Assembly: GCA_033439295.1 (NCBI GenBank)
Contig: JAVTLE010000010.1
Location: 496,001 to 560,000, forward strand
Direction of reading: 5' to 3'
DNA length: 64,000 bases
DNA from: Deuterostichococcus epilithicus
Lineage: Eukaryota; Chlorophyta; Trebouxiophyceae; Prasiolales; Stichococcaceae
Shown piece after piece: positions 115-47,865 of this stretch (the first letter of the stretch is position 1; every line of letters begins with the position of its first letter). Below the pieces are notes generated by a model. The model worked only from the letters and a program-made list of their open reading frames with translations, was not told where the DNA came from and made no database searches. A program made the position numbers and the translations under genes.

Positions 115-3100
115 GAGCCGGAGCCTTTCGAGGGCGCGGAGCGCGACGCCCAAGTCCCGGAGCCGCTCGCGTGAGCCGCTGCACCTTTTCCCGCCCCCTC
201 CGCTGCAGCGCCCATCAAAACCAAAGCTTCCGTTTGCGCAGCAGCGCCGGCGGCGGCCGAAACACTGACGAGGCCATCGGCCAGGGCGCTCTGCTCGAGG
301 CGTGAGCCTCATCGCTGCCGCAGCGGCCATGCCGCTGTCCCAGCCGGGCCGTCGCTACTGCTGCTGCTGCTGCTGCTGCCACCACCTGCTTGCTGCACCT
401 CCCGCATAGTCAGCGGCGCACCCAGCTGCCTGCTCATGCTGCTGCTGCTGCTGCTGCCCGCACACGTGCAAAGCCACAGCCTGGTCGCGTCCTCCCCGCG
501 TGCGTGGTCTGCGGCATAATTTGCCACGCGAGGTAGGGCGTCTTCCTGCGACATGTTTGGGCCAGCAAATGAGCAGCGTGCCATCCTTCAGGCAATGCAG
601 ATTGGCGGCCAGCGGCTGGCTTTAACGCTTGGTGATATACTGTCCATGCCACAGGAGATCCCATCATACAGGGAGAGGCGTGCATTGTGCCTCAGCAGAG
701 CTTTGTACACTGTTCTGATGTTTCAGCCTGACCTGGGCTGTGCGGTGCTTGCACAGTTTCGCGCGGACGTGTGCGCAGCCGCAGCCGCAGTCCCATCAGG
801 TGAGTTAAGCCCTGCACAGCCACTCGGTCGATGTGCACAGTGAGCCTCGCCACGCAAGCCATGTGCTGAAGATCGGCCTCCTGAGAGCTCTTTGCATGGC
901 GCTGCTGTGTACTACATGCACCAGTTTGTGGCTTCAATAAGCTTCAAGCTCAGATGTGAGGAGCTCAAAAACCGCAGGCGGCGCTCGCGCAGCAATAGCA
1001 GCCCCCGCCGCCGCTCGCGCACGCCGGTCCGCCGCTCCCGCAGCCGCTCCCCCCGCGGCGGCGGCGGCGAGCCCTACTGGCAGGTTCGCACTCTCGAGAT
1101 GCCTCAGCAGCCTGCCTTTCGTCGTCGCTGTCCCCTTCTGCAGTCCTGGGGTTGGCCAGCCGGCAGTCACTTACATGTTTATGCAGTGCGGCAGGCAGAT
1201 GTGGAGGACATGCACCTGACAGTGATAGCTGCAACACCCTATTCCATGCTGCATTCACCATTGCGCTGTGCTTCGTGTGCTCCACCTTCTGCCTGCCGTG
1301 CCACCCCTACCGCAGTCCTGCGCATTTCGTGTTACACGACTCTGCTTACTTTCCGTGTGCACCAGAAAAAGCTGAACCGCCTGATTGATGACGGCGTCGT
1401 GCGCGCGGGCGAGATCGACAACCGCACGCTGGATGCCCTCGAAGGTGCGCGGGCCCGTGAAACAGCCTGCAAACAATTCGCAGTTGCGGGAGCTAAGGGT
1501 TTAGGGCTTGCAGTGATCAGCAGTTGTCACCTGTTTGCTCAAGGCTCGCACACAAATTGCCATGCACTGCCGTGCAGACCTGTCGGCAGAGCTGGCGGAG
1601 TGTGCCATTGAGCGCTTTGCGGAGGCCAACTTCAGGAACATCAACAACAAGAGCGGCTTCCTCATGGTGGGTTTATGGCCATGCGACAAACATTGGGCCG
1701 CGTGCTGCAAGTGACTGGCGCCTTCATGTGAAGCATCTGGAGAGTCTGCAGGGGCCATGTCGTGGTACGGGCAGCGGCGCCAGCCTTGAGCTCTCGCTCT
1801 GCAAGGCTTCGACTTGAGCTCATCACCCGAGCCGAAGGCACGTTTCGACTGGATCAGGTGGTCACCTCAGATCCTTCATCGTGCTTGCGCAGGGCATTAT
1901 CCGGCGGGTGAAGGAGGACGGTCCCGACACTGGCGACAATGTCAACTTCGACCTGTTGTCACGCTCCGTGCGCCACCGGCTGCGCGACCTCATGGACGAT
2001 GTGAGTTCCTCCTGTGGCCCCTGTCTCATCTCTGCAAGCTCCTGTCTGGTCCGCTTTGCATGCCTGTGCACCAACACGAGGCACCAGACCTTGGCGCTGC
2101 ACACGCCGCTGCGCTGGTTCTGCTGCCCGACCCATTTCACAGCTGATAAGACAGCAGAGCGACTCTGGTGCCGTCTGCTTTTGCCCCAGAGCCTTTCGAA
2201 CAGAGGTGGACCACCGCATGATCAAGGCGCTGGCAGGCTGTGGCGGGGCCACAGCCTGCTGGCCCACAAACAATTCTTCAATATTCTCGAATTTCGTTGT
2301 GCCCTGAACACCATCAGCCTCATGTAGGGCTTGCTGCAGGCCCCATAATGACATAGGCTCTGTCCAGTGTAGTCAGGCTGGCAAATCATCAAATTTCCAA
2401 CAATGACTACAATGTACAGTGTCTGTCAGTGATAGGCCTGTAGCACCTGCCAAGGCATTAGAAAGTCGTTCAGAGCAGAAAAACCTTCAACGCCTTGCCC
2501 CTCTACTTCTTATGGCACGCTGTCCAGCAGCAGCGACGCGGACCAGCGCATGATCAAGACGCTGGCGGATGCGCCCCTCGGCCCTGCCACTTGCTTTTCT
2601 GGAGACTTTGAAAAATTTACTCACGACCCTTCAACGTGTGCTGCTCCAGGGCACGCTGTCCAACAGCGAGGTGGACCAGCGCATGATCAAGGCGCTGGCG
2701 GACCTGCCATCGGAGCTGGGCCTGGAGGCTGTGGACAAGTTTGCGACCTCCAACCTGGACTCTGTGCGCTCCAAGACCGGCTTCATGGTGAGAGGACCAT
2801 CTCGCTTCGGTTTGCAGATGGTTTGCATATGGATCTGCAGCGCTTCCTCGAATGCAAGGCTTCCTCGAAAGCGTGTGTCCCCCCTGGTGGGCAAGGCCGC
2901 CTCGCAGTACCGGCTGCCTTCCATTCGGAGCCTGCGCAATCTGGGTAGACCCCGCGCCTGCTGCCGCCTGGCTCTGCAGGCTGTCTTGCTGCGTCCCTGG
3001 CGTGCACGCCAGAGCATTCGTCTGATTGCCGGTAAAAAGCCTCGTCTTCGGCATGGATGTGACAGCAGCAGCAGCAGCAGCGGCAGCCGTCCTGGCAACG

Positions 3101-6224: not shown

Positions 6225-6782
6225 CCCTTGTTATTCAGGTCCGGATTTCTCTCAGAGCCTGTCGAGGCGTCAGTCGGGCCCATGGGCCGACATCCAACAT
6301 ATTTTTGATGACCAATAATGGGTACTGCATCCCTTGATGAACTTACAGCCGTTGGAGTACATCCACAAGGCCCCAGGACCACCATCTTGTAGCCATAGAG
6401 CAGCAGTTCGACATTAATCAAACATCGATCTGACTGAGTGACTGTTCTGAAGCCAAGGCTGTTGATGGGCTGTTGGGTATGTTGGAAGAGGCTTCATGTA
6501 CCGTGTTGCATCTGCGAACAGCATCTGAATCAAATCTGCGCATGCCCTTTGCTGTCAGGAACCAGCAGAGGAATTCTGCACATTGGCAACCCTCCGATTT
6601 GACTGGCATAAGACACTTTAACTGGCTGTTCTTCTTTGCTCGACTGCCTAAGTGAGAGCAAGAGATTCTGCAACGTTCAAGCTCCGCGCTGCTCACGATT
6701 GGGGCTTATTGGTCCCAACTCCCTGTCGCTGCGGCAGTATGATCAGCAGCCGCGACGTGACCCTCCTGATGGTCCGGCACCC
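6225..6782. other. Convergent intergenic region
   Basis: Presumed 3' UTRs of the membrane-protein gene (+) and the golgin gene (-). I see no further open frame or repeat. Confidence 0.5.
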
Positions 6783-9700
6783 TCAGGGCTGCCACGGCGG
6801 CAGCCACGTCTTGCTCTTGCACACGTTCAGGCGGCGCGTGTCGTCGGGCGTGAACTGCAGCAGCCGCCCCAGCACGGGCAGCAGGCTGCTGTGCACTGGC
6901 AGCGCGTCCGTCTCGAAGCCCCTGCAGCGTCAGTTTGCAAATGCAACTCTCGGGCGCAAATTGCAGCTGAATTTCGCTGTCGTTGTCAGGCCCCTTGCAC
7001 TCCCAGAGCAAGGCATCCGCACGCGAGCTAGGCAGCTCTCTGAGAGACATGCTGCCAACCCTTAGCACATGACTGCTCTGGGCTGACTTGCTGGGTTTTG
7101 CGCGTGTCTCATCTGGCAATTGCACACCTGACGATGACGTCCTTGACGTAGGTCAGGTCCACGGTTGTGCGCTTCTCTCGCCGCCGCATCTCCATCAGCT
7201 CCTCCTTGAGCACGGCCGCCGCCCGGTCCCGCAGCGCCTCTGTCTGCTGCCGGTCCTCCAGGTCCTTGCGGATGGCCGCCAGCTGTCGCCGCAGGTCCGC
7301 CTGCTCGCCGCCGCGGGCGTCCTGCGGAAAATTGCACAGACGGGGCGCTTCAGCCGCAGCAGCGCTGCGGGTAGGCTCCATGGGCCTTCGGCGTGTTGGG
7401 ACATTGCCATGCTGTGCACTACAAGTTGCATGCTGTTCCCCCTCCCTGCGCCCTCCTAGGCAAGGGAATGGCTGCGGAGCGCGGTGCTTCGAGTGCAGAG
7501 AGCGACTGCATGGTCCCTTTCTTGACAGAATGCGCACAAGGCAGCTTCCATACCCGTGCCAGACAATAATGCGACAATTGCGTCATTATATCTACAGCGC
7601 CCCCCCTGCCCGGGAGTGACCGGCGACGCAGGCGCGAACAGATACGACAGCCCAAGCTTCGACACCAACATCGAGATGAAAGATGCCATGTAACCAGCAC
7701 TGCACCTGCTTTGGGGTGACTGGCGATGCCGGCTCGATCTCAGCAAAGCTGACGGTGCGGCGCACAGGCTGCGGCGGCGGTGACGCCGTGCCGTCGCCAT
7801 CGGCGTCCCTGCCGCCGCCGCCCTGCCGCAGCGGCGTCAGCCCGCCCGGCTGCGAAGACGTGCGCAGGGCACTGGCGACTGGCCCACTCCGCGCCTGCAC
7901 CCCGGATCGTAGGGTAGGTCAGTAAATGACGCTGTAGCCAGGGGGATGTCAGCGGCTGCCATGTGGGCAGGGCTGGGCCACCAGGCACCCGAGCATGCAG
8001 CCTCCCCAGCCAGGAGCAGCGCCCTTAGCAGGGGGGGAGTGTTGGGAATGCTTGGCAAGACTGCAGGTGTGAGAGGCACCTTGCGCCCCTGAGATCCTGC
8101 AGACCGTCAGAATTCGGCAAGACGACAGCTGCAACAGTTGAAGCGCACCTTGTAAGCGGCGATATGCGCGTCCTTCTCTGCCATAAGTGCCTGCGCCCGC
8201 TGCCGGACCTGCGCCACCTCTGCAGCTGCTGCCTCCGCCCGCGCCTGCATCAGCGAGTACCACCCGACTTTGGCGTCGTTATCATGCGATACTGTGCGTA
8301 CATGACAGAGCATCACGAGCGGCACAGCTGGTGCCTGCTGCCCGTACTGCATCGGCCGCCGGACTGGAGGAGCGCTGGTCCCAGCAGTTACGGAACATCG
8401 CAGTCATGCAATGACTGACGGCGCTCAAGGCATTGTTGAGTGGCAACCCGCCCAAGGCTTACAGACAACGAATCAAGTGGCGGGCTGAGCTGCCGTCCAA
8501 CAAAATAACGCGCCTGCCACTCGTGGGCGTCCTCCGCGGCCTCCGCCGCCCGCCGCCCTGCGGCGGCGGCGTCCGCCTCGGCGGCGGCGGCACGCTCTGA
8601 AGCGGCGGCGTCTGCGCTGGCCAGCTGCGCAGCAAAGGCGTCCTCCCGGTCGTGCAGCTCCGCGGCCAGTCGGTCGGTCTCTGCCTCGGCTGCTGCGCTG
8701 CATTCATGCAAGGGAAGAATACGCATTAGGTCAGAAGAGTATCACGGCCGAGATGTAGGCTCCGACGCCTTGGTCGTGCAGCACCGCGGCCATCCAGCCG
8801 TCTCCGCCTCGGCTGCCGCCCTGCAGTCATGCAGGGACGGACTTGCAGCAGGTCAGGAATAAATGTATGCGTCGTCTCCGAAGCAATGGTCGTGCTGCAG
8901 CTCTGTGGCCATCTGGCCGTCTCCGCTCCTGCCGCCGCCCCTGTGTCGTGGCATTGCAGGCACTGCTGCACTCAGCCCGGGATGATCGTCCTTGACCCTG
9001 ACACATACCACAACTGGCATCGGGAGGCCAAGCACCATCGGATGCCCCAGACACTGCTGCCCCCCTCCCCAGAGCTGTTCCCCAAAGAACAGCAGGAAAC
9101 CCACGGGCACGGGCATGAGCATTCACCCACCAAGCTGCATGTTGACGCATTCGAAAAAGTAACACGCAGAGAGCGGATAGGATGCCGGAGCGAATAGGGT
9201 GCCGGGCCTTGTCACACCTGGCCTGCTGCGCCGCCGAGGCCTGCTGCGCCGCCAAGGCCTCGGCGGACCGCAGTGCCTCCAGCTCTGCTTCCAGAGCCGC
9301 TTCTGCTGCTTCTGCCGCCTGCCGCACATCCGCTGCCGCCGCCTCCGCTGCTGCAGCCTCCGCGGCAGCGACCAGGGCCTGAACCGCCGCGGGCCAATCG
9401 TCGCGATCCTGCGGCCATGTCCGATACATGTGCTCACTGACAGCTGCTACAGGGATTATCTGAAGGTCAGGTTGGTGGCTGCAGCAAACCTGACGAATGG
9501 TTCACGGGGTCGTCAGTGGCGGTGGTAGCAGGCACGCTCGGCCTGTAGGAGGCTCAACCCGGCCCCGCCAGCCACGGGCGTGAAGCACACGCATCTAAAT
9601 TGCATATGGCAGTCACAGGCTTGGTCTGCAGAATCCGGCTCTCGTGTCAGGTTGTACAATGCAACATGCGCACCGCGTCCTGCAGGCGCTCCAGCGCCGA

Positions 9701-12700
9701 TTCTGCTGCGCGCACCCCCTGCGCATGGTCCAGTCGCTCCTGCTCCACCAGCACTGCAGGGTGGGCCAGCGACGAGTGTGAATGAAAATGGGTGGGTGAG
9801 AAAGTGGGTGGGTGGGGAACTCCCTCACGTGCCTGCCGCAGAGCTGATGCGCTCAGGAAACAGAGGGGCAAGTGGCGTAGGGCGATCTGGGGCCCGCCAA
9901 AGTTCGCGCAACAGGTTGAGCAACCTGCAGCTCTCCCTTCACAAGGCATTGCTGTCTGACGTCAAAAGCTGAATATGGTGCTCGCCAGTGATCTCTGCAG
10001 ACTCGCCATTCCAGGGTAAGTCTGCAGAGAGCTCCACCTGGGGCAGCCTCAAGCCTGTCCTCCGCATGTGCACGCCTGCCCTCTGGACTCCACACCAGAG
10101 CCTACAGCTCCAGTCCCAGTCCCAAGATAACCCCAAACGCCATCACCTTGCGCGGCCTCCAGCTCCTCTTCAGCATGCCGAAGCTGGTCCTCCAGTCGTG
10201 CAGTTGCGGCTGCCGTCGTGGCCAGCTCCGCCTGCGTCGCGGCCAGCTGGCTGCGCCATGCCTCAGCCTGCTGGCGCTCGACCTTTGCCGCCTCCAGCTG
10301 CGCGGTGGCCGCCTCCAGCTGCGGCCGCAGGTTTGAGGACGTGCACTCAGCGAGTGGGGCAAACAGAGAAGGTGCAGCGTTCTTTTGTCGAACTCTAGCT
10401 GTCAGCCTGCTGTGCAGTTTGTGTGCAGAGCCTGATAGGCAGCTCGGAGGTCGAGCACAAGTGGAAGAGAGACAGTCAGAAGGCACATATGCCTGTCGCT
10501 TTGATGGCCTCAGAACCGTAGTAATTCGATTTGTATGTGTCGTCTACACGGAAGTTCAGACTGACGTGCAATACATGTTCATCAGCGGCAACAAGGCCAA
10601 CACAAGTGCAGCGTCAAGAGTATATATAGTGTGCAAGCACAAGACATGTGCAAGAAGCGGGACTGATGTGCTGACCAAGCCCAAAAAGCCAGCTGTGGAA
10701 CTAACCTTCATTCCGAGGCAGCGCCGAGGCCATGACCCAGTGCTTTGAACAACGCCAAGCAGGTGAACTCCTGGAGCTCGGAGATGAGAGGGGTTGCAGC
10801 CGATCCACTTGCCTGCTCCTCCAGCGCCACACGCTCGGCGAGTGCCGCCTTGCTCCGCGCCTGGAACTGCACCAGAAACTGGCTGCGCGACTCCTGCTCC
10901 GCCGCCAGCTTAGCCTCACCGCTCGCAATGGCTGCGCGCGCCGCCGCCAGCTGATCCTGCGGCGGCAGACAGGGACGCGCGATGCTTTGCGCTGGCCGTG
11001 TGGCCCACAAACCGGAGGAACCAGCGGCGCGATTGCGCGCTGCAGCCTGCCCTGTGGCCTCGTGCAGAGCAGCAGGACCCGCGGCTCACGCGGGCGCAGT
11101 CAACGGCCCCCAGAGCAGGGCAGTCAGCGTGCCGTCAGGCGCGCTGCAAGCTTCCATCCAAGCTGCGCGCGCCGACCTGCAGCGGCTCCAGCTCGGCGAC
11201 GCGGGCGCGCACCAGGTCCGCCTCCTCCGACAGCGTCCTGAGCGCCGCCAAATTGAGCTGCGCCTCGTCCAGCTCACCCCGCCGGTCCCTGTGATACAGT
11301 GTGGAGAGCAACGAGAGTCGCACGTCAGAGTTTTTGCCCCGGAAGTGATATTGAGCTCCGTGAGGTTTGAGCTGCACTCGTCCAGCTCCCCGCGCAGGTC
11401 CCCGTGGTGGAGCGTTTGGCTGGGACAGTGACAGAAGCGGTTGTTGCCTTCTCAGACAGTTCTCGGAAGCTGACTGAGCGCCGCCAGCTTCAGCTGCGCC
11501 TCGTGTAACTCGCCCTGCCGGTCAATGGCGAATTGTTGCATCCGATCTCTTGGCGCGGCGCCAGACGATTGCGACACAGGAGTATTGATGTGCTTGCGGA
11601 GCACGCAGGGGGCCGCCAGGTCGAGCTGCCGCCCCTCCGCAGAAGCATCATGCTTCGCCCAAGGGAAAACGTTCGAGCGCCACCAGGAGGAGACTTGACG
11701 CAGCCTCAGCGAGCGCCTCAGGGCTTGAGCCTCCGTCAGAGGAGTTGCAGCNCNANNCNCACGGTTTGGGGGAGGGGGGGGGACAACCGCGCACTTGTTG
11801 ACCTTCTGCAGGCGTTCCACCCGCTGATCCAGCGCCTTGCGCTCGTTTGCCCACGCCCGCTCACTGGCCTTGGCCTGCCACATCGCCATGCACATGACTG
11901 AGCCGCTTGCAAAAGTAGACGAGCGCGCAGTAGTGTTCAATGGGACAAAGGGCCATCAGCAGTTCGAAACTCGGCAGTTCACAGAGAGCGGCACTCAAGA
12001 GATGCCCAGGAGGCATCCGCCAGACAAGTGAGGCACGCCTGCATTGAACTGCCAACGGGTGCCATGTGCTCAAGAAGCCACATGCATCCAGACTAATCTT
12101 CCGACCCTATCTAAGCTCCTCACCTGTGACACCCGCGCACGGGCGTCCTCGAGGCCCTTGGCCAGGTCCACTGCCTCGCCCTCGCGCTGCTGCAGCAGCT
12201 GGCGCTGCTGCCGCACCTCCGCCAGCGCGCCGTCCAGCGCCCGCTGGCTGGCCGCCAGTTCCTCCTGCAGGCGGGGGCGAGGCCGTGGAGTGCCAATGTC
12301 ACTGGCGAGTGCAATCCGCGCACGCCACGAGGCGTTGTCTGCAATGCAGCTGGGCACTTACTCACAGGCTGACGGGGCTCAGCCTCGGCATGTCGAGAAC
12401 GAGCTCGGCCACCTGGTGCCACTGGGTCCGACAGGCCTCGATGCTGCAGCTGGCACCACGACCGAGCGCAGGCTCCCAACCGCTCACCTGCGCATCGGCG
12501 TGCGCCTCCCGCTGGGCAGCAGCCGCCGCCGCCTGCGCCACCTCTGCCGCACTCGCCTGCTCCCGCGCCGCGGCGGCCTCCGCCTGGGCGGCCACAAGCC
12601 CCTCCTGCGCCGCCGCCAGCTGCTGCCTGGCTTCCGCCAGCTGCTCCTCCGTCTCAGCGCGGCCCGCCTGCAGGTGCAGCGCCACCTGCACACAAGACAG

Positions 12701-15700
12701 GCGAGCTGGAATATTAAATACTTGGAAATGCTATTCGGGTTGATGTTTGCACCATCGCCTCAGGATCAGGCTGTGCCACTGGAATCAGGACCCTCCTGGC
12801 GCTGCTGCTGCGCCACAGTGGCCCTGCTAAAGGTTGTGCTCCCTTTCAGGGTAGAAGGCAAGGCTCAAGACATCGCGTCACTGATGTGCACTGAACGATT
12901 GAATGCTGGATGCAGCCACCATGACTGAACACAGCGCCAGAGCACCAAGCATCCTGGCGTCATCCTGCTGCCAACCCACACCTGTTGCAGTGTTCGGCAC
13001 ATGTTGACGCATGCCAAAATTGTTTCTCACGAAGCACAGAGCTGCTTCGACTCAATGCAGAGAAGCCCCTCCCAGAAAACTCGGGCGCAGCTGCTCCTAG
13101 TCAGCGTCCGCTGCATTCAGAAAAGCGGTTCCCAACCCTGACGATGGTGAAAACCACAGTATGAACCGGCCCCATCCCACACCTGGCGCAGCTGCTCCTC
13201 CTCGGCGTCCGCTTCCGCCAGCTGCACGCGCGCCGCCTGCAGCTCCTGCTCCAGGGCCGCCGCCGCAGCGGCGGCGTCACGCATGGCGTCCTCCGCCACC
13301 GNCAGCCGTGCCGCGGCGCCCGCTGCCTCCTGCCGCGCCTGCTCGGCGTCCCGCCTTGCCTGCTCCGCTTCTTGCCGCGCCTCTGCCGCCGCCTGCTCCG
13401 CCTGCACGGCCCGCTGTCGCGCCTCGGCTGCCTCCTGCTCAGGAGTCTGCGCCTCCAGCTCCATGGCTGCCTGCACAGGCTCCACCGCAGGCTCGGGAGC
13501 CATTGCCGAGGGCTCGGCGGCTGCATCCAAAGGCTCATCCGCGGGCGCGGGCGGCGCCTGCGCCCGCCCCAGGGCTGCCGTCAGCTCCTCGCGCGGCTTC
13601 GCGGCAGTGGCCTCCGCCGCTGCGGCCCGCGCCTCCGCTTCCGCCGAGTGCGCCTCTGCATTGGCAGCCCGCTGCTGCAGGGCCTCCTGCTGCTGCGATG
13701 AGGCGTCAGGCTGCTGCGCTGGCGCCTTGCGCGGATGCTGCTGATCCTGCAGGTGTGGGGGCCGGCCCGCTGGCGCCTCCTCTGCAGCTGCCGCTGGCTC
13801 GGCTGCCGCCGCTGCCTGCTGCTCGCGCTGCTGCTGCAGCAGCTGCTCTGCTTCTGCCCGGGCCTGTGCTGCAGCCTGCGACAGCTCCTCGCGACGGGCT
13901 GCCTGCTCTGCCGCAGCAGCCTCCGCCGCCGATGCCCGCTGCTCGGCCGCCGCGAGCTGTTCTTGCAATGCATTCCCAGCGGCGGCTGCATCATGCTGCA
14001 AGCGAGCCGCCTGCGCCTCGGCCGACTGCAGCGCATCAGCGAGCTGCGCCGCTTCTGCCCTGCTGGCTTCCTGCACCTCGGCGATCCGCTGTGCCGCTGC
14101 CTTCAGGTGCCCTGCGAGCTGCCCGGCGGCCGCCTCTGCACCCTGGCGCAGGCTGTCGCGCTCTGCGACAGCTGCCTGCAGCTGCGTCTCGAGCGCCTCG
14201 CAGCGGCCTCGCAGCTCTGCTGCTGCAGCATCCGTGCCTGCGGCCTGCTGCCGCGCCTCCTCGGCAGCCTCCTGCCGCAGCCGCTCGGCGTCTGCTGTGG
14301 CCGCCTGCAGCTGCCCCTCGAGCTCGTCGCAGCGCCCTCGCAGATCGGCCGCCGTGGCCTCTGCACCTGCCGTCTGCTGCTGCGCTGCCTCGGCCGCCTG
14401 CTGCTGCAGTCGCTCGGCACCAGCTGTCGCCGCCTGCAGCTGGCCATCCAGCTCCTGGCAGCGTGCCTGCAGCTCTGCCGTGGCGGCGTCCGCGTCAGCA
14501 CTGTGCTGCTGTGCCGCCTCAGCCGCCTCCTGCCGCAACCGCTCGGCGTCCGCTGTGGCAGCCTGCAGCTGTGCCTCGAGTGCATCACAGCGTGTCTGCA
14601 GCTCTGCTGCGGCAGCCTCTGCGCCTGCGGCCTGCTGCTGGGCCGCCTCGGCTGCACGCTGCCCTGCCTCGAGCACCGGCAGCTCGAGAGCCGTCGCCCG
14701 CTGCTCTGCTGCATCTGCGCGCTGCTGTGGTGCATGCGCCTCTGCCGTTGTGGCTGCGCGGCCCTCTGCCGCTTCAGCAGCCGCCGTTGACTGGGGCATG
14801 TGTTCGGCCGGCCCGGCGCCGCCGGCAGCAGCAGCGTTAGCTGCAGTGCCCGCCGCCCTGGCGTCAGACTGCTGCGAGGCAGCCTGTGCAGCCTCTCGAG
14901 CAGATCGCAGCTCGGCCTCGAGGGCCTCCTCCCGCATGGCCGCAACTGCCCGCTGCTCATGCGCCGCCGCCGCCTCGACCGCAGCAGACTCGGCCTCTGC
15001 CTGCGCAGCGGCCAGCCGCTGCTGCAGCTGCGCCGCCTCAGCCGCCTNCTGCCGAGAGGCCGCGGCCCAGTCCTCGCCNGCGGCCGNCAGCTTGGCCGCG
15101 GCTTCCTNCAGCTGCTGCTGCAGCGCCGCCATCGTCTCGGCATGCTGCGCCTCCGCAGACGCCAGCCGCTGCTGCAGCTCGGCGACAGCCTGCTGCTCGG
15201 TGCCGGCGGCTGCCGCCGCGCCTGCTTCCGTCTGGGCCAGCCGCTGCTGCAGCGCCGCGGCGGCTGCCGCCGCTCGCTGCCGCTCTGCTGCCGCCTCCTG
15301 CGATGCCGCCTTGGCTGCGGCCTCGGAGTCGCACAGTCGCGACTGCAGCTGCGCCACCTCTGCCGCCAGGCCCACCTCAGTGGCCCCAAGTCGCTGCTGC
15401 AGCCGCGACACCTCCTCGGCATGCTGCTCCTGCACCGACTGCACACCGCACACAGCAGAGAGTGATACGGCATGCACGCGTTGCAGCTGGCCTCACCAGA
15501 CGCTGTGAAGCTGACGCGCTGCCGTGCAGTCCTGTATGCCATGTTGCGCACGCACTGCGACGGGCATCGCGTGCCATGTCCCCGCCACCGGCACACACCA
15601 CGTTGGCCTCACACAGACACGTGCGCAGGACCTGTTGTGCCACAACCTGTAGACACGACTGTGCAGCCAGCACTGCCAAGAGGGCCTGAAACGGACGTCA

Positions 15701-18901: not shown

Positions 18902-24231
<5,330 letters not shown>

Positions 24232-27500: not shown

Positions 27501-30500
27501 ACGCAGTCGCCTCCCCACATCTCCCTAGTTTATTCAGAAAACTTCGTCGCAGATTCTGTATCGCAACCCTGCACCGCGGAAGCAGGCGCCCGCAGTGTAC
27601 TCAGCCTTCAGACCACCAGCACAAATCGAATTCCGCAAGTCCTTCACACCTGGACCACAAACCTACAACCTGCCATTCTGCCGCCGCAGGCCCAGATCGC
27701 GTCGGCGAAGGAGGCACTGGCACAGGCGGACGTGGACTATGACGGCACGATGGCCGCCAAGCTGCTCATTGCGCGGCAGCTCTTCGACCGCGAGGGCGCG
27801 GCGCTGCTGCAGGTGAGGAGTCGCTCTTCCTGCTTGTCCACATCCTGGCTCAGCATGGTCTGCAGCTTTCAGGTAGCGCTTTCAGGTATACAGCAGGGGC
27901 CGCCATTGGTATGATCACTGGGGACGCCGCAGCCGCTGAGCTCTGTGGCTCAGCAGTCCATCAGCTGGGCGCGCGCTGTGCTGGACCTGGCAGTTCTGTG
28001 AACCTGGCAGTCCTGGTGCAACACCCTCGAACCTGCTGCGGCCGCCAGTGCGCGACCGACCGCTGCTGGCTCAGCAAGCAGTGGCGGCTGACACCACTGA
28101 AACGTTGGGACTGAGTCTGCACCTTCAAGCAGCTTGCTGGCGCGGATTTTGCAGACACCGGAGTTCAAGCAGTGGTACGGGGACAACAGGGCATGGCTGC
28201 AGCCATACGCCGCGTTTTGCTTCCTGCGGGACCTCTTTGGCAGCGCGGAGCACTGGAAGTGGGGCTCCCTCAGCCGCCCCAGGCCCCAGGCGCGCAGCGC
28301 ATACCCCTCCTATCGCCTGACATACATGCTGCAATGCCGGCACGGCCAGGCCTGGCCGTCAGCAGGTTATGACAGCAAATTGTGACGGGAGCAATGCTGT
28401 TGCAGATTCTCAACGTCGTCCCCATGGCATGGGACACTTCGGAGCCTGACAAATTTGTAGCAACTTGTGAATGTTAAGGAGTCAGGTCCCAGTTCGGCTC
28501 AAAATTCGAGCCCCGCCTGACGCATTGTACATTTCCACCGCAGGACCTGGACCGCATCACGAGCCCGGAGCGGGACTTCCATGCCAGCATCCAGTTTGTG
28601 TATTATCTGCAGTACCAGCTGCACCGGCAGCTGCTGTCCGTGTCGCAGTACGCCGCGCAACACCACATCGTCCTCAAGGGCGACCTGCCCATCGGTGCGT
28701 GGTGCCCGCTCTTGGGCCCCCTGGAGACCCCTGCCGACAACCCGTCACTAAGAGGCCTCGCAGCCCTGGCAGCTGCAACCAAATTCAGCTTCATAACCGT
28801 CGCTTGAGGGTGTTCCTATGCTTCAGGCCATGTCGCCACCTGTTTGTGACTCCTTCAACAGGCAGAACTGCCACTGTCAGGCTCGCACACCACGACAAAG
28901 CTGGACCCCTGCCTGCGCCCGTGCCCCCCACGGCCGTCGACGAGCGCAGTGTTATCACAAACTGTGTCTGAGTCGTCAGAGAATGAGATCCCTGTGTGAC
29001 TCCTCTTTGCAGGCGTCGACAAGCGCAGCGTGGACGCATGGATGCAGCCGACGCAGTTCCGCATGCACGTCAGCACGGGGGCGCCGCCCGACGTCTTTGC
29101 GACGCAGGGCCAGAACTGGGGCTTCCCCACCTACCAGTGGGCGGAAATGGAGAAGGACGGCTACTCCTTCTGGCGGCGGCGCCTCACGCACATGTCCCAG
29201 TGCGCTCTGCCATGTGCACCCCATCCTCCTGACTCGAGCCAACATGCTCGTGTCCTCTTGGAAAATTTGTATCAGGACCTGCAGGCCCAGGCAGCTGTTG
29301 ACGAGGAGGCATTGCAATGACGCAGGTACTTCTCAGCATATCGCATTGACCACATCCTGGGCTTCTTCCGCATCTGGGAGATTCCCGGCGACTGCGCCAC
29401 AGGTGCCCGCTGACCCCTATTCCTAGATGAAAGCATCCATCATTTCGTCTGAGCGCACGCTGGCATTTGCCCTGGTCCCGCATGTCCTAGCTTGCCAGTC
29501 TTCTGGCATGTCGAGCCTCAGCAATGTTTTGGTGCATCCGGCAGGGCTTCTCGGGCATTTCAGGCCCTCCATCCCTATCAGACGTCACGAGCTGGAGAGC
29601 CACGGCATTTGGGACATCGACAGGTGCGACCCCTGTCCCACCTCCCAACTCAAGCAGGCGTCATGACACCGCTGCAACCAGACAATGGGCTCCAGGCTCG
29701 TGCACTCTCCTTGCACACATGCAAATTCTCGCATTGCGCATCCAAGAAAACCACTGAACGCCTGTAATGCAGGCTGTGCGACCCGTACGTGACTTGGGCG
29801 CTCATTCAGGAGGAGTTTGGGGACATTGCTGCGGAGGTGGCCTCGAAGTATTTTGAGGAGAACATTGCGGCGCGGCGCTATGTGTTCCGCGCGCCATACA
29901 GCAGGTGCTAATGCACCTATTCCACTTCGATCGTATGCATTTCCAGCAGCGGGCAGTTTGCTGTCAGCTTGGCCCGTCCAGACGCCACGCTCTGATGGGT
30001 GTCTGCGGCGCGATGCGCCAGACCATCTTGAATGATACATGACTCATTTTGAACCCTGCTCGGACGCATGCCATCAAAGCCTAGAACTCATCGTATCCGA
30101 GCACTGGTCGCTGACTGCCATGCTCGCCGTCATGCCGCAGCGAGGTGGCCATTGCGGCGATTGAGGCACGGCCCAACAGCCCGGAGTGGCTGCGGGAGGA
30201 GGTGGCCAAGACGCGGCGGGGGCTGATGCGGCTGCGGCAGAACGTGGTGCTGCTGCGCAACACGGACGAGCCCGACAGCTTCTTCCCGGTGAGACGATGA
30301 TGACGTTGGCCCAAGGGCTGCAGGGCGCCCCATGCTGCTGTCTCCGCCACCATGCTCGGGTGTATGTGAGAACGTGCGGGCCGATTTGCTATGACTGCGA
30401 TCATCGAAAACCGTCTCTCAGTCGAGGGTGCTGCGAGTTTCTGCGCCCTCAAAACGGCCTTCCGTCTCTGCTACAGTCCCACGCACTGGCAACCTTGACC

Positions 30501-33283
30501 ATCGGCTGCCACCCCTGCCCCCCCCTGCAGCGCTTCCAGCTCATGGACACCAGCAGCTTCAGGGAGCTGGACTCGGGCTGGCGGGAGCGCCTGGCCTGGC
30601 TGCACGATGACTACTTCTACCGCCGCCAGGTCAGCTGCTGCTTGGGCCGACCTTGTTCAAGTTTTGCCCGGCTGCACAAACAGTCTTTACAACAGTCTGC
30701 CGCCACGTCAGCCAAATGTTCCAGTTCTGCACCGTGTTTCGTCAGCCTTTGGGTGGGCATTTCAGACCAGCATGCGTCACACCAGCGCCTTGGCGCGCAG
30801 TGCTAATACAAGGCCAGCCGGGCACTGTGCACACGCCATGGGCGCACGGTCCTGCTTTGCCCGCGCTCGGCCATGCCGCCTTACAACTGCAGCCCTGCCG
30901 AGGACAGCCCCCTGTCTGGCAAGACCTGTGAAGGAAGTGTGCTGCCGTGCTGCAGCCATGCTGCCAGCTGGCCCGGCGGTGCCGAGGCCTGTCATGGTCG
31001 ACAAGCTGCATTCCCTCCTACACTCATTCACCAGCCGGATACCGAGCCTGTGGGGGCCTGTGGGGATCGCAGTGCGCTGCACGCTGGCGGAGCCGATGCT
31101 CCTGATGGCCCGCAGTTTGCCGCCGATGTCACCAGCCCGTCCCGTCACTGACCCTGTGCGCCCCCTGCTGTTCACAGGAGGACCTGTGGCGGGCCAACGC
31201 GCTGCGAACGCTACCGGTGCTGATGGGTGCGACAGACATGATGGTCTGCGGCGAGGACCTGGGCATGATTCCCGCCTGCGTGCACCCCGTCATGGAGCGC
31301 CTCGGCCTGTTGGGTGCGCAAGTGTCGGAGGGACAATATGTTGGTGTCTGGAATTCGTTCACACTTCCTGCTGCTTTGGGGCATTGGTCCCTGCCCTGCA
31401 TGCACCGCGTCATGGCGTGCCTTGGCCTGCTGGGTAAACCCAAAACCCAACTCGTGTGCAGCAACATTGTAAAGACAATTCCTTATGTTTCGTTGCTGCA
31501 AACATCTCACTTGCCAAATGGGACGTTGTTCTATCAGTGTCAGGTGCACCGTCAGGTGCACCACCGGAAGGCAGTGCCAGCAGCAGAGGCGTGCTAGTGG
31601 CCAGTAGAGAACGCCTCCAAGCAGCGTCACTGCCGCCGGTCAAGGAACTGGGCCAGGAGGCCCGGCGCTTGGTCGCCCCAACACGTCTGCCTGCACCCGT
31701 GTATCCTGACCCATGTGGTGCGGGCTGCCCGTGCCGCAGGCCTGCGGATACAGCGCATGCCCTCGGAGCCGGGCCAGGAGTTTGGCGACCCATCTGGCTA
31801 CCCATACATGGTGGTGTGCAGCCCCTCCTGCCACGACACCAGCACCACGCGCGCCTGGTTCGAGGAGGACGCGGGCCGCCGCGAGCGCTTCTGCTCCGAG
31901 ACGCTGGGCGCACAGGTGTGCTGCACGTTCGCCAAAATCCCTGAACCTTGCGGCATCCTGGCGCACATGGCTCGAGGAGGACGTGGGCGCCGCTACGAGT
32001 AGGGCTTTTGCTTTGAGACGGGCGTCCAGATGGGACGATCACAGCTAAAAAGCCCTCTCGTGGCTTGGTCTTGGCGTTTCAGGTGGGTCACCTGAAGATT
32101 GTGCATCGGTGCTGTGGGCGCCGGGCTGAAAAGCCTGGCAGCTGGTACTCCGGAGTCGTCCGCTCGTGCTGGGCGCCTGCCTCGAAGCAGCAGGGCATGC
32201 GCGGATTGAGGGGGACTGCATGGGCCTTGGGCAGCATGGACGACTGCAAGGCGTGACCCCAGATCCTCGGCATCATGGGACGTGGCTCCATGTGCGCAGG
32301 GGGAGGTGCCGGAGCACTGCACGCCGGAGATCATGCGCAGCATCGTGCGGCAGCACCTGGCATCGCCCGCCATGTGGTGCATCTTGCCCATCCAGGTGCG
32401 CCGCCTCTGCGTTCGCCTATGCTGCATTCCTCTTTCCAGGGTGGCATCCTGCTGGTGCAATGGTGCGGTGGCTGAGCTCAGCTGCCGGCCCCTCAAGAGC
32501 CACATGGTGCAACGCACACGGCTCGGCTCGCAGCAGCACTGCACGTGCCGCCCGCGAGGCGGTCGACGAAGCCAGCTCAAGGGTCTCGACTCCTGCCTCA
32601 CCTCCACAGCAACATGGTCTCCCACACGGCAAGGTGGAGCACCCTGGCATGCATCCCTGCAGCAAAACGCTGTGATCACTGCAAACCCCAGGACATGGTG
32701 GCGCTGTCGCCAAAGTACATGGGGCGCCCTGCGGCGGAGGAGACCATCAACGACCCCAACAACCCGCGGCACTACTGGCGCTTCCGCATCCACTACACCC
32801 TTGAGGACGTGCTGGAGGACGAGCCCCTCATCTCCGACCTGCAGGCGCTGCTGCTGGGTGAGCGCAGATGCATGAGACGACCCCATTTGGAACAATGTAC
32901 TAGTGCCAGCATCGGCCCGGATTCGCACGTTGTTCCTGGCTAATTGAAGGGCAAATCGCCTTGACGTACCGAGAGGCTTGGGCTAGGTGTTCCAGCGTCT
33001 CCTTGCTGGGGAGCAATATCTAAACTGTGGGGTGTCTCTGGCTGGGCAGGTTCAGGACGCTGCAGCACTGACGACCTCCCGGAGCTGCACACACAGTAAC
33101 ACGCTTCAAGCAGCACAGCAATTTGGTGTGCCGCTGCTGCAGCGCTGCGCCGCACAATCTCATGCAGGCCGTGTCACGCCCGCGGGTCTGGACGCCCTGA
33201 TGCAATGCACGGGCCAGGGCTACTGGCGGAACGCCAGTAGCTGTGGTGCAGCTCTGCTTGCCCAGAAGCTTCGGTGTCAATAG
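24558..33283 (+). CDS. DPE2: Cytosolic 4-alpha-glucanotransferase (disproportionating enzyme 2) with two CBM20 modules
   Basis: Twenty-two exons: 24558-24914, 25125-25270, 25533-25656, 25833-25944, 26117-26303, 26613-26725, 27037-27122, 27336-27404, 27690-27812, 28155-28289, 28544-28694, 29013-29199, 29326-29402, 29545-29623, 29773-29904, 30141-30288, 30531-30629, 31178-31313, 31740-31915, 32300-32395, 32692-32857, 33168-33283 (TAG); 1004 residues, near plant DPE2 (about 950). Two N-terminal starch-binding modules (GALGEWQ-like; LPSLGDWQ) precede GH77. Catalytic residues visible: nucleophile Asp605 in YRIDHILGF, acid/base Glu801 in CGEDLGMIP, Asp853 in SCHDTST. The enzyme transfers glucose from maltose to a heteroglycan acceptor in the cytosol during starch use. 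No transit peptide. An Ala-rich linker (residues 250-300) is alga-specific. The exon ending at 28289 needs a GC donor. The last exon is assigned by phase only. Confidence 0.93.
28945..28970 (+). repeat. Ghost of the DPE2 exon start at 29013
   Basis: The exon begins GTCGACAAGCGCAGCGTGGA after the split Gly codon. About 65 bp upstream GTCGACGAGCGCAGTGTTAT occurs in the intron, with no usable AG directly before it. Confidence 0.6.
31053..31108 (+). repeat. Ghost of the DPE2 exon start at 31178
   Basis: CCTGTGGGGATCG, CGCTGC and GCTCCTGATGG in the intron parallel CCTGTGGCGGGCC, CGCTGC and GTGCTGATGG of the exon start about 125 bp later. Similarity is partial. Confidence 0.45.
31388..31436 (+). 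repeat. Ghost of the 3' end of a DPE2 exon, including a GT donor
   Basis: The true exon ends at 31313, encoding ACVHPVMERLGLL before GGTGCG. About 118 bp later the intron reads PCMHRVMACLGLL before GGTAAAC. The copy therefore keeps a plausible splice donor. Confidence 0.8.
31964..32035 (+). repeat. Ghost of the 3' end of the next DPE2 exon
   Basis: The exon ending at 31915 encodes WFEEDAGRRERFCSETLGAQ. About 107 bp downstream the intron reads GGCTCGAGGAGGACGTGGGC and further matching text, with in-frame decay. Confidence 0.8.
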
Positions 33284-35625: not shown

Positions 35626-38600
35626 ATGGCTTCGTCACTGTGCAGTCACTCCCACACGCTGGTAGTGCAGCAGCGCATGCACACGGTCGTTCCAGCTATC
35701 ATCCATAGATCTCATGTATGCAGCTTCGCGCCACAGCAGCGGCGTAGCGCCGCCTCTAGCCGCCCACAGCGACAGCATGGCAGCGTACAAGGGCCATTGA
35801 CGAGGTGTCTCGGCGCACGGCCGCTGCAACACGCATGTCGCGGTGCAACGATCGTAGTGTCAGCCAGCTCGGCCGCGACATGGGCCGCTCCAGCGGGCTT
35901 CAACAGGCCAGATGCATCGCATGAGACTGATGAGCTGGCGGCGCCGCCACCGCTGCCGCCAACGCCAAAGAGCAGCAGCCTACTGGACGTGTTTCCTTAC
36001 CTTGCGCGGCTGGCGCTCTCCGAGCGGTCCTTGTACTGGCGCCTGGCGCTGGCGCTGGCGCTCATGGTGGCGTCCAAGGTTGCGGGTGTGGCGCTCGAAT
36101 TTCCTTTGATGTGGTTAACGTGTGGGGAGCCAGGATTCATACCTTACCTGCAACGGGCAGCGTAGACCGCCTCCAATCGCTGCCTACACACCATATCCCT
36201 AGCCTGACCGGCAGCATCCAGGCCTCACGCACTGACATGGCTTTGAAACAGCAACTTGTCAAGTGTCCAGTGATATCTCGTGAGCCCGCGCCACAGGTTT
36301 GCTGGCGCCAGTGTACTTCAAGCACGCGGTGGACGCTATGGGGCAGGGCGCGGTGCAGATGACCATCGGCGCACTGCTGACGTCGGGGCTGTGCCGCATC
36401 GTCAATGGCGTCGCCAAGGAGATCCAGCACCCCTGTTTCACGCCCATTAGCCAGGTGAGTAGAATCTGTTTTTGCTCATGCGTAGAACTTCTGAGGCGCA
36501 GCAGAGGCGTCTCATCGGTGGCCATTGTACGAAGGCCGTGCTACTGCATGAGAAGACATCGTAGATGGCCGATCTGGGACGACAGCAGAGCCTATTTTTC
36601 AGGAAGGCGCACCCTGTGCGCCCCCGATGATGGGTGGGGAGGGGTGGGAGGTGTGATTCCTGTAGCAGGTCCAGACCTATCAACAGCAGCTGTGTCCTTA
36701 GGCGCACAATTTGCGACGCCCTCTCCCACTTCATTTGCAGGCAGCCGGGCGGCGGGTGGCGTACCATACATTCGCGCATGTACTGGACTTGGACATAGGG
36801 TTTCATTTGGAGCGGCGCACGGGCGCGCTGTCCCGCGTGCTGGAGCGCGGCACCCGCTCTATTGCCGTCATGTTCCGCGCTATCGTGTTCACCTTCGTCC
36901 CCACCGCCATTGAGCTAGTGAGGCGGTGCATGAGAGCCGCCTTCGCCGCAGTAAAGACAAGCTGCAGAAGAGCATGTGCCACCGTCTTGGCTTGGTTACA
37001 TCCTCTTGAGAAACCTGCTGCGCCTCGCCCTGCCGTGCATTTTGTTGTGCAGAGCCTCTCACTCACATGTCTTGACTTTGTCTCGACAGGTACTGGTGGC
37101 GGTGGTGCTGGCGCGTAGCTTCAGCCCGATGGTGGCCGCGCTGGTCATCGGCACCTTTGTGGCATACGTCTCCTGGACGACGCTCATGACCCAGGTGCAG
37201 CCGCATGGCCAGTCCTTCCACAATCATTGCCTCCACGTCTTTTCCCTCGTCAACGCTATTGGAGGGCGGCAACGATAAGCAGTTATGCAGTCCTCTGTCG
37301 CCCGATTCCAAACTGTCAATTTTGAAGATTCCAACCGGGTGTGTGCGCAGGCAGCCACAGACATCCGAAAGCAGGTGAATGTGCTGGACAACCAGACGAC
37401 CGGCAAGGCGGTGGATGCGCTGCTCAACTTCGAGACTGTGGCGCTGTTCAACAACCAGGTGCGATGAGTGAGCCTGTGTCCCCAGCTTGCTGCAGCCATG
37501 CTCTGAGCCTACTCTCGATCCCAGATGGGGAGGCAGGCTGTATGGAGGGGAGGGGTGAATGCGCATGTGCATCCCCCGCTGCGCTTGAATGAGGCCGGAA
37601 TTGACTCCAGCACCGTCAATATGTCGACCGCGCACCGTTTGGTATTGCTGCCATGCGCTGCGGATGCCACAGCATGACATGCTGCTCAGTATTCGAGCAT
37701 CAGGCCCTGAAACCCGGAAACCGTGCCGCCCATTCCGCAGGCGCTGCAGGTGTCGGTGTATGATAAATGCTCAGCAGTTGGATCCTGGATCCCCAAACCT
37801 TTCCATATACATCCTGCTGAGGCCTGCTGAATCCCGCTGCATTGCGCTGCACAGGTGCTGGAGGTGTCGGAGTATGACACCGTGCTCAGCATTTGACCCC
37901 GGAACTTCCGACACACTCGATCCTGATGAATTTGCTAAATTCTGTAGGCGCTGGAGGTGTCGGAGTATGAGACAGTGCTCTGCCTTGGCCTCAGAGACGT
38001 CAGTCTCGAACACCTTCCCACTGCACCCGAAAACATGCCCGCAGGCGCTGGAGGTGTCGGAATACGACACCGTGCTCAGCAAGCTGCAGAAGGCGTCCAT
38101 CAAGACGGAGGGCATCAGCGCGACGCTCAATGCGGGGCAGTCGGTCATCCTGTCCTTTGGTCTCACGGCAGTGTTGGCGGTTGCCGCCATGGGCTCCGCG
38201 ACCACTGCAATGACAGCTGGCGACCTCGTCCTCGTCCAGGGCTTGCTGCTGCAGCTGTGGGGACCTCTCCAGGTGGGTTGTTTTGTTGCGCAATGCGCTG
38301 ATGCCGTGTGCTTGTCGTCACCTGCACGTGGTACTGGCATGCTGCCTTTTGGCTGACTGCAATGGCGGGCACAGGCCCCGACCGCCAACATCCCCTGCAT
38401 CCTACGCAACAACCAACCTTCTCATGATTGAAATAGACAACGATGCGTTTTGAAATAGACAACGATGCGGTTGCACGGCTCTGCTTTCATTGACGGTCTG
38501 CCGGCCGACTCTGACTGATTTCACAAAAGTTGCCCCGCAGTTCTTGGGCTGGTTTTACCGTGAGCTGCGGCAGTCGCTGGTGGACCTGGATGCCTTCCTC

Positions 38601-41600
38601 AAGGTGCTGCAGACGCAGAACTCGCTGCCTGACGGCGACAGGGAGCTGCCGGCACTTGACGTGGAAACCCTCGAGCACCACTTCCAGCAGTAAGACGATC
38701 GCTGCTTCATTTCAATTCTGGGCTGTGGGGGGTTGGATGCCAGGCGAAAATGAATGGATGCATTTTGGGGGTCCTTAACCGGACTGTCCTCCTGATGCTG
38801 GGTGTGAGCAGCCTGTACACCGCATCATACTACAGGTTCTTTCACCTTTGCAGGAGGGTGCAGGAGCCCGCAGCTGAGACGCGGTGTGCAGGCTCTCGTG
38901 CAAAATGCCGCCTGACAGCATGCCGATGCGTTCGGCACTTAGAGGACTGATGATCACCGCTGCCGGCGGCGCTGTGGCATGCATCAGCATGGCTTGCTAG
39001 CAGTACTCATCTGGCGGCCTTGCTGGGCGCAGGTCTGGCAATGGGACAGAGGCACAGGCGACCAATGGTGCAGAGGCGCAAGCTGTCGCCGATGCATCAG
39101 TGCGCGGCCTGCGAGTGGAGCTCAAGGTGCTTTTCAGAGTGGCTCACGTTTCTGCATACGATATGCAAAATTTCGACCTACCCATCCAGCCTGCACTTGC
39201 GTGCTGATGCCGGCACCACCTGCCTTCGGTTGTAGACCCGTCACGGTGCCAAGGGACCTGCTCTGTTGTGTCTCTCGAGGCAATGCGGCTGTGCCGGGAC
39301 CCGCTCCTCCAATGCCGTAACTACATTGCTGACTCGTGGGCGCCGTCGTGGAGCTGAGAATGTGGTGTCTGGACCTCGGCTGCAGGGTGTGCATCTCATC
39401 TGTGACTCGGAGTGAGGCGCTCAACGGCGTCAAGGGCGCCGGTGCTGGGATTTCTGTTGTCAGCCTTTGACTGACTCTATTTCTCAAAATTTCAATTATC
39501 CTTACCGCAGGATGTGCACTTCAGCTACAACCCGGAGCGGGAGGTTCTCAAGGGCGTCAACATCACAGCGGAGCCTGGACAGAGCGTTGCCATCGTTGGC
39601 CCCAGCGGCAGCGGTGTGCGTTGTTGAGGCTGCTGTGTTTGCATTGCCAGACGTTTGTAGCATATCTGGTTTACTTAATATCTGTTGGCTCCGCGTCCGT
39701 AGGTTGGCCCATGTGTTGCTTATACATTTTGGCGCCTAACGCTGAATGCTGCTTGGGTGGTGTCTGCTGAGCTTTCAAATTCATTTCAGCTTACCCAACA
39801 TAAGCCATTTGTGCTGGAATCCGCAGGCAAGTCCACTTTGCTGCGGCTAATGGTGCGGCTGTATGACGCCACCAGTGGCAGCATCAGTTTGAATGGCGCC
39901 GATGTCAGGTGCAGTCCTTGCAGTGAAGATTGAGCGCATCCGTGAGAAATGCATGCTTGCATTGGCCAAGACTTCCGCTGTGAACTTAAGGAAATGCACT
40001 TCTAGACGGGCTTTCATTTCTGACAGGGACTTGCGGCAGGGGTCACTGCGGGGCAGCGTTGCGGTCGTGCCGCAGGACACGGTGCTCTTCAACGATACGA
40101 TCTACAGGAACATCGCATATGGCAGGTGACAGCTCGCTGCCTGGAAAGTCAAACCCTCTGCCTGACACACAGCACCAGAAGGCCAGAAGTTGGAGCAGAC
40201 CTTGGGTCCCAATCGACACTCTTCGGAAGCCCGGGTCTGGCAGCTGATCACCTGTGGTTGATGGGTTGGCTCGGAGGTTGACGTAGCTCTCACCAATTCG
40301 CACCAGGATTGGGGTTGGGTGGCAACAGGGCCGGAAGCGGGCACACTCTTTCAAGAACCATGGTCTAGCTTGCCCTTTTCAAGGGGAGCCTTTGCCAGTT
40401 CACAACGGGATCTGGGGGGCGTGGGAGGAGGTGGAGGCGGCCCAGTTTCAAGTCAAAGGGCTGGCATTTTAGGTTGTTGGCAGGACCTTTGCCTTCTGCG
40501 TCAATCAGGATTGGGGCGACGCGGGAGGAGGTGGAGGCGGCGGCGCAGCGGGCGCAGCTGGACTCCGCCATCGCACGCATGACTGATGGCTACAACACCA
40601 TGGTCGGCGAGCGCGGCCTCAAGCTCAGCGGCGGCGAGAAGCAACGCGTAGCCATCGCGCGCGCCTTCCTCAGGTGCTGCTGTGTGTGCAGCTGCCATGG
40701 AAGAGTGGTGCTTGCAGTGCACATTAGCGCCTCTCAAAACAGGAGAAGGCTAGCAATACCCTTGTCACCATAGCTACGCAGACCTTGCATCCCACACAAG
40801 CTCAGAAAACTGCTGCGTAATGTTGATGTGCCATCCCCCTCCAATTGCATGTCGCAGGTCGCCCAAGCTGCTCATCTGCGATGAAGCCACCTCGGCGTTG
40901 GACACGGCCACGGAGCGTGGCATCATGGACAGCCTGACGGAGTTGGCCTCGGGCCGCACTTCCATCTTCGTGGCACACAGGTCAGCCCGATGGGTCATGC
41001 TGTGGCTGCACGCGTGAATGCACTCGGTGCCAGCCTTCTCGTCACGTGCTCTCCCCCCTTCTCAGCTTGACGTCCGATAGGAAACCACCAGTTGCGGCTG
41101 GTAGTCGTCACGGTTTGCAGTTACACTCCAGACGCTTCATGATCAGAATTTGGTGTGCACATGTCACGCGCCGTCTGTGCCCGCTTCCGTCCCAGCCCAG
41201 CAGTGCCAAGACCCTGACAACCTTCTGGCTTTGTGCAGGTTATCGACAATCAGGAGCTGCGACAAGATCGTGGTCATGTCGGCGGGCCAGGTCGTGGAAG
41301 AGGGCAGCCACCAGGACCTCATGAATGCCGGTCGCGTCTATGCCGACATGGTGATTTGCCTTGAGCCCCGACTGCATATACATCCACATGTTGTGCACAT
41401 GCGCGTGCCTCTCAAACCAATTTTAAAAATGCAATCGTTTCACGAGCTTCGCGATCTGTTGGCCACATCCTCTAATGTCTGTGTGTTGCAGTGGGCTATG
41501 CAAGCGGAACAGGAGGAGCAGTCGCAGAATGTCTGCATCGCACCGGAGTCTTGGGAGGCTTGGGAGGCATGTAACAATGCGGCAGGCTCCACAAGCTCAA

Positions 41601-47745: not shown

Positions 47746-47865
47746 TCCCCACCATCCACCGCTCACCGCTACTTGCCGCCGCCACCTGCCACCTGCCACC
47801 TGCCACCTGCCGCCTACCACGTGCCACTTGCTTCTTTGTTGGCTTGCCACCCACACCCACCGCCC

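Follow-up and report, generated by a model that had tools for sequence, protein, structure and literature searches.

What leaves decayed copies of exon edges inside the introns that adjoin those same exons? The question is raised by a 64,000-nucleotide (nt) stretch of the Deuterostichococcus epilithicus genome (C9:496001-560000, hereafter the window), in which an original prediction described such copies at ten loci and attributed them to a process centered on splice junctions that enlarges introns and offers alternative splice sites. We call these copies ghosts, a ghost being a decayed direct copy of an exon edge inside the adjacent intron, detected at a Smith-Waterman score of at least 30. 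Splice-junction ghosts in long introns are confirmed here as a real pattern, and the earlier interpretation as a whole is partly supported. We lean slightly toward reading ghosts as old tandem duplications of about 110 nt across junctions, retained where splicing would not pick them, a reading that needs no junction-aware machinery.

Exon-edge copies and their spacing

The analysis covers about 0.35 megabases (Mb) of a 46.8-Mb genome in 21 contigs: a main sample of 304 kilobases (kb), made up of the window, the 200 kb downstream of it and 20 kb from each of the contigs C1 and C5, and a hold-out sample of 10 kb from each of four further contigs. A gene finder trained on the 304 kb itself predicted 755 exons and 698 introns, with the splice consensus CAG/GTG at donors and GCAG/G at acceptors (the slash marking the junction), and all exon edges discussed below are such predictions from DNA. 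Merging internal exons shorter than 60 nt left 597 introns flanked by two exons, or 593 once four repeat-laden introns are set aside. The gene models look sound where tested, since Pfam recovers a 4-alpha-glucanotransferase with starch-binding domains, an ABC transporter and a protein with hnRNP-Q acidic domains, and the spliced transporter aligns without gaps to ABCB25 (7n58) across the ghost-bearing junctions at 38045 and 40509.

Self-alignment of the 304 kb yields 164 local direct repeats, compared with 4 to 8 in three shuffles that preserved codons in exons and dinucleotides elsewhere; the excess lies at lags of 80-125 nt, and many of these repeats are an exon edge matched to the neighboring intron. 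When each 60-nt exon edge is aligned to its own intron, with length-matched other introns as the control in 20 rounds, a score of at least 30 is reached by 20 of 531 donor edges and 23 of 531 acceptor edges (control means 0.0 and 0.3, maxima 0 and 2). The exon stretch 60-120 nt from the edge gives 3 of 294 on the donor side and 1 of 292 on the acceptor side (controls 0.2 and 0.3), and the far edges of the same exons reach score 30 in 2 of 294 and 1 of 292 cases. In the comparison preset with the original prediction, of junctions with exon interiors and other introns, matches therefore concentrate at junctions, with nearly none in interiors. No inverted copies of exon edges occur at score 30 or above.

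The raw matches number 66 in 41 introns. Sixteen were dropped, 14 of them in four introns (nos. 28, 87, 88 and 90) with C-rich or glycine-codon repeats and 2 for low trinucleotide variety, which leaves 50 cleaned ghosts at 37 junctions in 35 introns. Among these 50, 44 reach to within 10 nt of the exon edge, and the copied exon part spans 25-75 nt from the edge, with a mean of 45 for nearest ghosts. The spacing between the nearest ghost and its source ranges from 58 to 166 nt (median 111, standard deviation 20, n = 37), in line with the predicted mode near 100-130 base pairs (bp), and averages 115 nt for donors (n = 18) and 107 nt for acceptors (n = 19). Copied length and spacing have a rank correlation of 0.28 (p 0.11, n = 34), which fits a fixed unit or a fixed spacer length alike. 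Arrays hold up to three visible ghosts, mostly 93-131 nt apart (exceptions 67, 72 and 329), and the inner end is common within 1-2 nt in 5 of 10 multi-ghost arrays. The idea that older copies are more degraded fares less well when distance serves as a proxy for age, the nearest ghost being the most similar in 6 of 10 arrays.

In the window itself, the adjacent exon edge recurs as a direct copy at all ten loci, and the claim of local, direct copies on both donor and acceptor sides is borne out. Eight loci (2.2, 8.8, 11.4, 13.1, 31.4, 32.0, 37.7 and 40.3 kb) score at least 30, and those at 7.6 and 28.9 kb fall below that threshold. The features are as follows, with identities as fractions and distances relative to the exon edge.

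2001..2649 (+): intron of 649 nt in the gene with hnRNP-Q acidic domains (Pfam), the RS/NURR gene of the original prediction
2203-2234 (+): acceptor ghost, 31/32 identical, 465 nt from the exon start at 2650
2514-2569 (+): acceptor ghost, 50/56 identical, 136 nt from the exon start at 2650
7613..7637 (-): weak donor-side ghost below threshold (score 25), 20/25, 100 nt; 384-nt intron 7322-7705 of a golgin-like gene
8772..8819 (-): acceptor ghost, 41/49, 123 nt; exon edge 8648-8696; 520-nt intron 8698-9217; the intron flank is also similar
11367-11401 (-): acceptor ghost, 31/36, 113 nt; exon edge 11238-11288; intron 11289-11794
11474-11523 (-): acceptor ghost, 42/50, 236 nt; same exon edge (11238-11288) and intron (11289-11794)
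13084..13112 (-): donor ghost, 26/29, 101 nt; exon edge 13185-13213; intron 12686-13182
28935..28952 (+): weak acceptor ghost below threshold (score 26), 16/18, 79 nt; 318-nt intron 28695-29012 of the DPE2-like gene, which is the 4-alpha-glucanotransferase with starch-binding domains (Pfam)
31379..31433 (+): donor ghost, 44/55, 120 nt; exon end 31261-31313; DPE2-like gene
31961..31993 (+): donor-side ghost, 29/34, 111 nt; exon region 31849-31882 of the DPE2-like gene; the match ends 33 nt before the exon edge
37741..37983 (+): array of three acceptor ghosts; exon start 38045-38081; 586-nt intron 37459-38044 of the ATM1/ABCB25-like transporter
37741-37776, 37857-37891 and 37948-37983 (+): members of this array, 29/37 at 304 nt, 33/35 at 190 nt and 31/36 at 97 nt
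40413..40441 (+): acceptor ghost, 27/30, 99 nt; exon start 40512-40541; intron 40126-40508 of the ATM1/ABCB25-like transporter; G-rich with 11 distinct trinucleotides and excluded from statistics

Long introns and proposed splicing limits

The ghosts are confined to long introns, a regularity absent from the original prediction. Across the 593 introns, ghosts are borne by 1 of 122 shorter than 150 nt, by none of 325 between 150 and 300 nt, and by 34 of 146 of at least 300 nt, and at lower score thresholds introns of 180-240 nt stay at the control level. The small hold-out sample agrees: its 75 introns contain 3 ghosts, at 134, 193 and 100 nt (control mean 0.35), and these fall in 3 of 16 introns of at least 300 nt, compared with 0 of 52 introns of 100-300 nt. 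Exons adjoining ghosts are also longer than others (171 versus 132 nt, p 7e-4).

Were splicing to shift from the real site to the nearest ghost, the residual intron would be at least 192 nt long in 36 of 37 cases, the share of introns below 190 nt being 37% of all. The resulting exon would likewise be at least 207 nt long in 36 of 37, where about 75% of exons would be expected to reach that length after adding 110 nt (lower exon quartile 96 nt). In Drosophila, according to PMC2397502, recognition across the intron ceases above roughly 200-250 bp, and exon definition limits exon length. Limits of 192 nt for introns and 207 nt for exons would fit survival of ghosts only where neither mode of definition picks them.

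Ghost-bearing introns are longer by 88 ± 20 nt per ghost (34 introns; unit about 110 nt), and the proposed enlargement of introns is to that extent supported; this increment exceeds what the copied exon bases by themselves would add by about 2 standard errors. The suggestion that ghosts offer alternative splice sites finds less backing. Splice dinucleotides are kept in about half of them (GT in 10 of 23 donor ghosts and AG in 14 of 27 acceptor ghosts), and the ghosts are placed where splicing should ignore them.

Origin of the ghosts

Once formed, ghosts evolve without detectable constraint. Against the real exon they mismatch at pooled rates of 0.130 (codon position 1), 0.102 (position 2) and 0.205 (position 3), and codon-position tests give no sign of coding selection on the ghosts. 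Array changes private to one ghost are spread over the three positions as 31, 24 and 35 (90 in total), and the eight changes common to all ghosts of an array fall as 2, 1 and 5. Even private changes together with this distribution of common ones indicate that ghosts drift neutrally, and the third-position excess of mismatches most likely belongs to the real exon. An in-frame stop is found in 4 of 31 ungapped ghosts.

These properties can be accommodated if a ghost is born by tandem duplication of about 110 bp spanning a junction, the unit taking in the splice site along with some 45 nt of exon edge and some 65 nt of intron. Of the two copies, the one beside the exon body would stay in use, and the outer one would become intron and drift. 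Duplications within exons would be purged by selection on the protein, and those within introns would decay twice as fast, both copies drifting, and become too decayed to detect; a junction-spanning duplication would keep one copy under selection and hence be visible longest, so that survivors would seem centered on junctions even if no junction-aware process had acted. The original prediction's process centered on splice junctions would therefore not be required, since blind tandem duplication would look alike.

After the duplication, two equal splice sites would compete, and a ghost would be kept only if its use gave neither an intron shorter than about 190-200 nt nor an exon shorter than about 200 nt. 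Such a filter could produce both the confinement to introns of at least 300 nt and the lower spacing limit (rarely below 80 nt). The upper limit has to be set by the duplication process, because spacings above about 170 nt are rare yet present (193 nt in the hold-out sample and a longer self-match at a lag of about 270). At C9:687471 (assembled position 191471; about 7471 in L014), an intron-plus-exon duplication of about 200 nt with a lag of about 270 lies outside the 110-nt class. Multi-ghost arrays look as if each had been made in one multi-copy event, given the common inner breakpoint in half of them and the mostly private changes. No near-identical junction-spanning units appear among the self-matches of the 304 kb with lags of 400 nt or less, which suggests that the process is past rather than ongoing; we infer a single past episode.

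At acceptors, ghost and source intron flanks aligned in register are similar at 6-46 nt (excess 4.8 over other introns anchored alike, 34 pairs, p about 1e-6) and remain so at 20-50 nt (excess 2.4, 33 pairs, p 0.002), and the similarity also surpasses what the same intron gives in shifted registers. At one locus the alignment extends over 180 nt, at lag 112-109. A neutral simulation in which the whole unit is duplicated, with 0.3 indels per substitution and d = 0.2, returns an identity of 0.842, a weak/strong ghost ratio of 0.80, a gap rate of 0.018 and a flank excess of 6.6. The observed identity (0.849), gap rate (0.015), weak/strong ratio (about 0.7, estimated from the 30-130 nt window) and acceptor flank value are all near these figures, and it is on this closeness that whole-unit tandem duplication is preferred. 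Plain decay with few indels was rejected on the pooled data and is partly rehabilitated when indels are frequent.

As an observation on intron decay elsewhere, L026 2415-2738 (C18:965415-965738) is a degenerate copy of part of a transporter exon plus 253 nt of intron (window 37383-37711), which is about 79-81% identical and ends just before the third ghost; this paralogous fragment shows that an intron diverged to this extent can still be aligned over about 250 nt. A 10-kb search for paralogs returned two short C18 matches and a dispersed repeat. A repeat of about 95 nt at L006 6591-6685 (GCAGCAGCGG-like, near assembled position 110592) has dozens of matches genome-wide.

Several results weigh against duplication of whole units followed by a splicing filter. 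Donor flanks have no similarity (excess -0.3 over 24 pairs, and 0.03 relative to shifted registers), although exon parts are about 84% identical, and the simulation that comes close elsewhere predicts about 6.6 for this value; with 0.12 indels per substitution, the simulation is rejected by the pooled flank scores, which it predicts far above those observed. Among the 8 of 50 ghosts that are at least 92% identical, flank similarity reaches p<0.05 in just 1, the array at assembled position 203966 being the clearest flank-less case of high identity. The donor side and these 7 of 8 flank-less ghosts are the main results left over by the whole-unit reading. Changes that coincide in two ghosts number 17, compared with 11.0 ± 2.7 expected, and 13 of them are to the same base; they may be changes of the real exon or reflect shared ancestry. 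Introns of 240-300 nt lie slightly above control at lower thresholds (9 versus 4.2 at score 22, 4 versus 1.2 at score 24), an excess far smaller than in longer introns, and the length limit is imperfect in that one ghost sits in a 116-nt intron.

Copying or rewriting that respects the junction, and so gives ghosts a younger appearance than the intervening intron sequence, would explain the donor side, and we give this broader class a minor though appreciable chance. One form of it, in itself rather improbable, is concerted evolution, whereby the duplications are old but the exon part of each ghost is repeatedly rewritten from the real exon, across about 110 nt, by short gene conversion or template switching while the spacers, no longer homologous, drift. 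Exon parts far less diverged than donor-side spacers would follow naturally, and the predominance of private over common changes and the common inner end in half of the arrays can also be claimed for it. Yet mismatches are not patchy in 43 ghosts (52 adjacent versus 54.7 expected), the acceptor data nearly fit plain decay given frequent indels, and no mechanism is known to us that works on 25-70 nt yet spares the flanks, which counts against such rewriting.

To a similar degree doubtful is a second form, in which the splice site and 25-70 nt of exon would be inserted about 65 nt away by templated, perhaps RNA-based, copying that leaves out the flank. It would explain why flank similarity is missing at donors and in 7 of the 8 most similar ghosts, and it is consistent with spacers that show no excess of local patch sources and, in the two introns searched, match nothing else in the genome but one paralogous fragment. 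Against it stand the acceptor flanks, homologous out to 20-50 nt, and the increment per ghost, about 2 standard errors beyond the copied exon bases; moreover, where a spliced RNA would lead on into the next exon, ghost flanks do not (mean 10.8 versus 11.2 in controls).

Three further sources of the inserted sequence were tried and rejected. A mobile spacer or dispersed element is at odds with between-locus spacer scores that stay at the level given by random pieces of intron (mean 12.3 versus 12.5), and the statement that the arrays are not a dispersed transposon holds, in that spacers at different loci contain no common element. Filler DNA of break repair predicts patches, and exact 11-mer patches occur at 0.10 versus 0.11 per spacer in 49 spacers; a single 14-nt patch match lies inside the array at assembled position 203966. 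Copying from elsewhere in the genome is contradicted by the searches with two introns, in which the C18 fragment was the sole match.

Selection in long introns for ghosts that work as decoy or helper splice sites would explain their near-strict confinement to such introns, but we consider it quite improbable in view of the even distribution of changes over codon positions, the loss of GT or AG from so many copies, and the few sites (4) changed to different bases in two ghosts, with no sign of constrained versus variable sites apart from same-base changes. An artifact of gene prediction, low-complexity coding sequence or dispersed repeats, a kind to which the 16 removed raw matches do belong, is barely credible given the few matches in matched-intron controls and in exon and intron shuffles, the gapless alignment of the transporter to a solved homolog across two ghost-bearing junctions, and the lack of spacer similarity between loci.

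Other repeats, significance and known systems

The window also contains repeats of other kinds. In the golgin-like gene, positions 14174-14652 hold an in-frame coding tandem repeat of 129 nt (3.7 copies, about 76% matches) that is distinct from the ghosts. A perfect 22-nt tandem duplication lies in an intron at 38428-38469, and a TTGT array of 23 copies at 42165-42256. A frame with a YADD motif at about 42.6-43.8 kb, which the gene finder joined onto the transporter model at its 3' end, resembles a reverse transcriptase and looks like a mobile element. Duplicated blocks of a few hundred nt, together with 50-nt and 90-nt tandem repeats, occupy 42568-45760, 50750-51942 and 57148-57330. Short repeats (GCCACCT, CCGCCAC and similar) form strongly strand-biased, C-rich tracts that, together with longer duplicated blocks, extend over 47744-50000, with a GC skew of -0.43 at 48-50 kb; the C-rich tracts gave doubtful exons and were excluded. 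Nineteen N bases are present in the window, and those located (about 11.75, 15.0-15.1 and 48.3 kb) lie in the repetitive golgin-like gene and the C-rich tract.

Intron lengthening is usually attributed to transposons. Among introns of at least 300 nt in the present sample, about one in four (34/146) carries a recognizable duplicated splice junction, and perhaps half once did if decay is allowed for, detection in the fitted simulation being about 0.4. Junction duplication would then be an under-noticed route of intron growth. If the splicing filter is true, the surviving ghosts would show, as a natural experiment, at what lengths intron and exon definition fail in an alga, with limits of about 190 nt for the intron and about 200 nt for the exon readable from DNA alone.

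In searches of the open-access literature that did not take in the Chlorella NC64A genome paper, we found no description of the ghost pattern. That paper may, reportedly, mention exon-derived repeats in introns. Lehmann 2010 is reportedly a reference on intron gain by tandem genomic duplication. That process, as described in PMC3296678, is similar in that a short duplication of exon and splice site alters gene structure and leaves the mRNA unchanged. The duplication treated there creates a spliceable intron, whereas ghosts extend an intron that already exists, the outer junction copy turning intronic, and no new intron position is required. The ghosts lie inside one predicted intron, no new intron separates the copies, and the protein sequence of the transporter runs through the junction unbroken.

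Introner elements of Micromonas likewise represent large-scale gain of intron sequence in a green alga, but they are, according to PMC3488318, repeat elements found in thousands of introns, whereas the present copies derive from their own neighboring exon and have unshared spacers. Exon duplication, for which tools such as Exonize exist (PMC12343006), also repeats exon sequence within a gene; it copies an exon with two splice sites, where the ghosts comprise merely 25-75 nt beside one splice site. The intron and exon definition described in PMC2397502, with an intron limit of about 200-250 nt and a constraint on exon length, comes close to the limits seen here. Those limits are a property of splicing, and in the present system they are invoked as a proposed filter on duplications.

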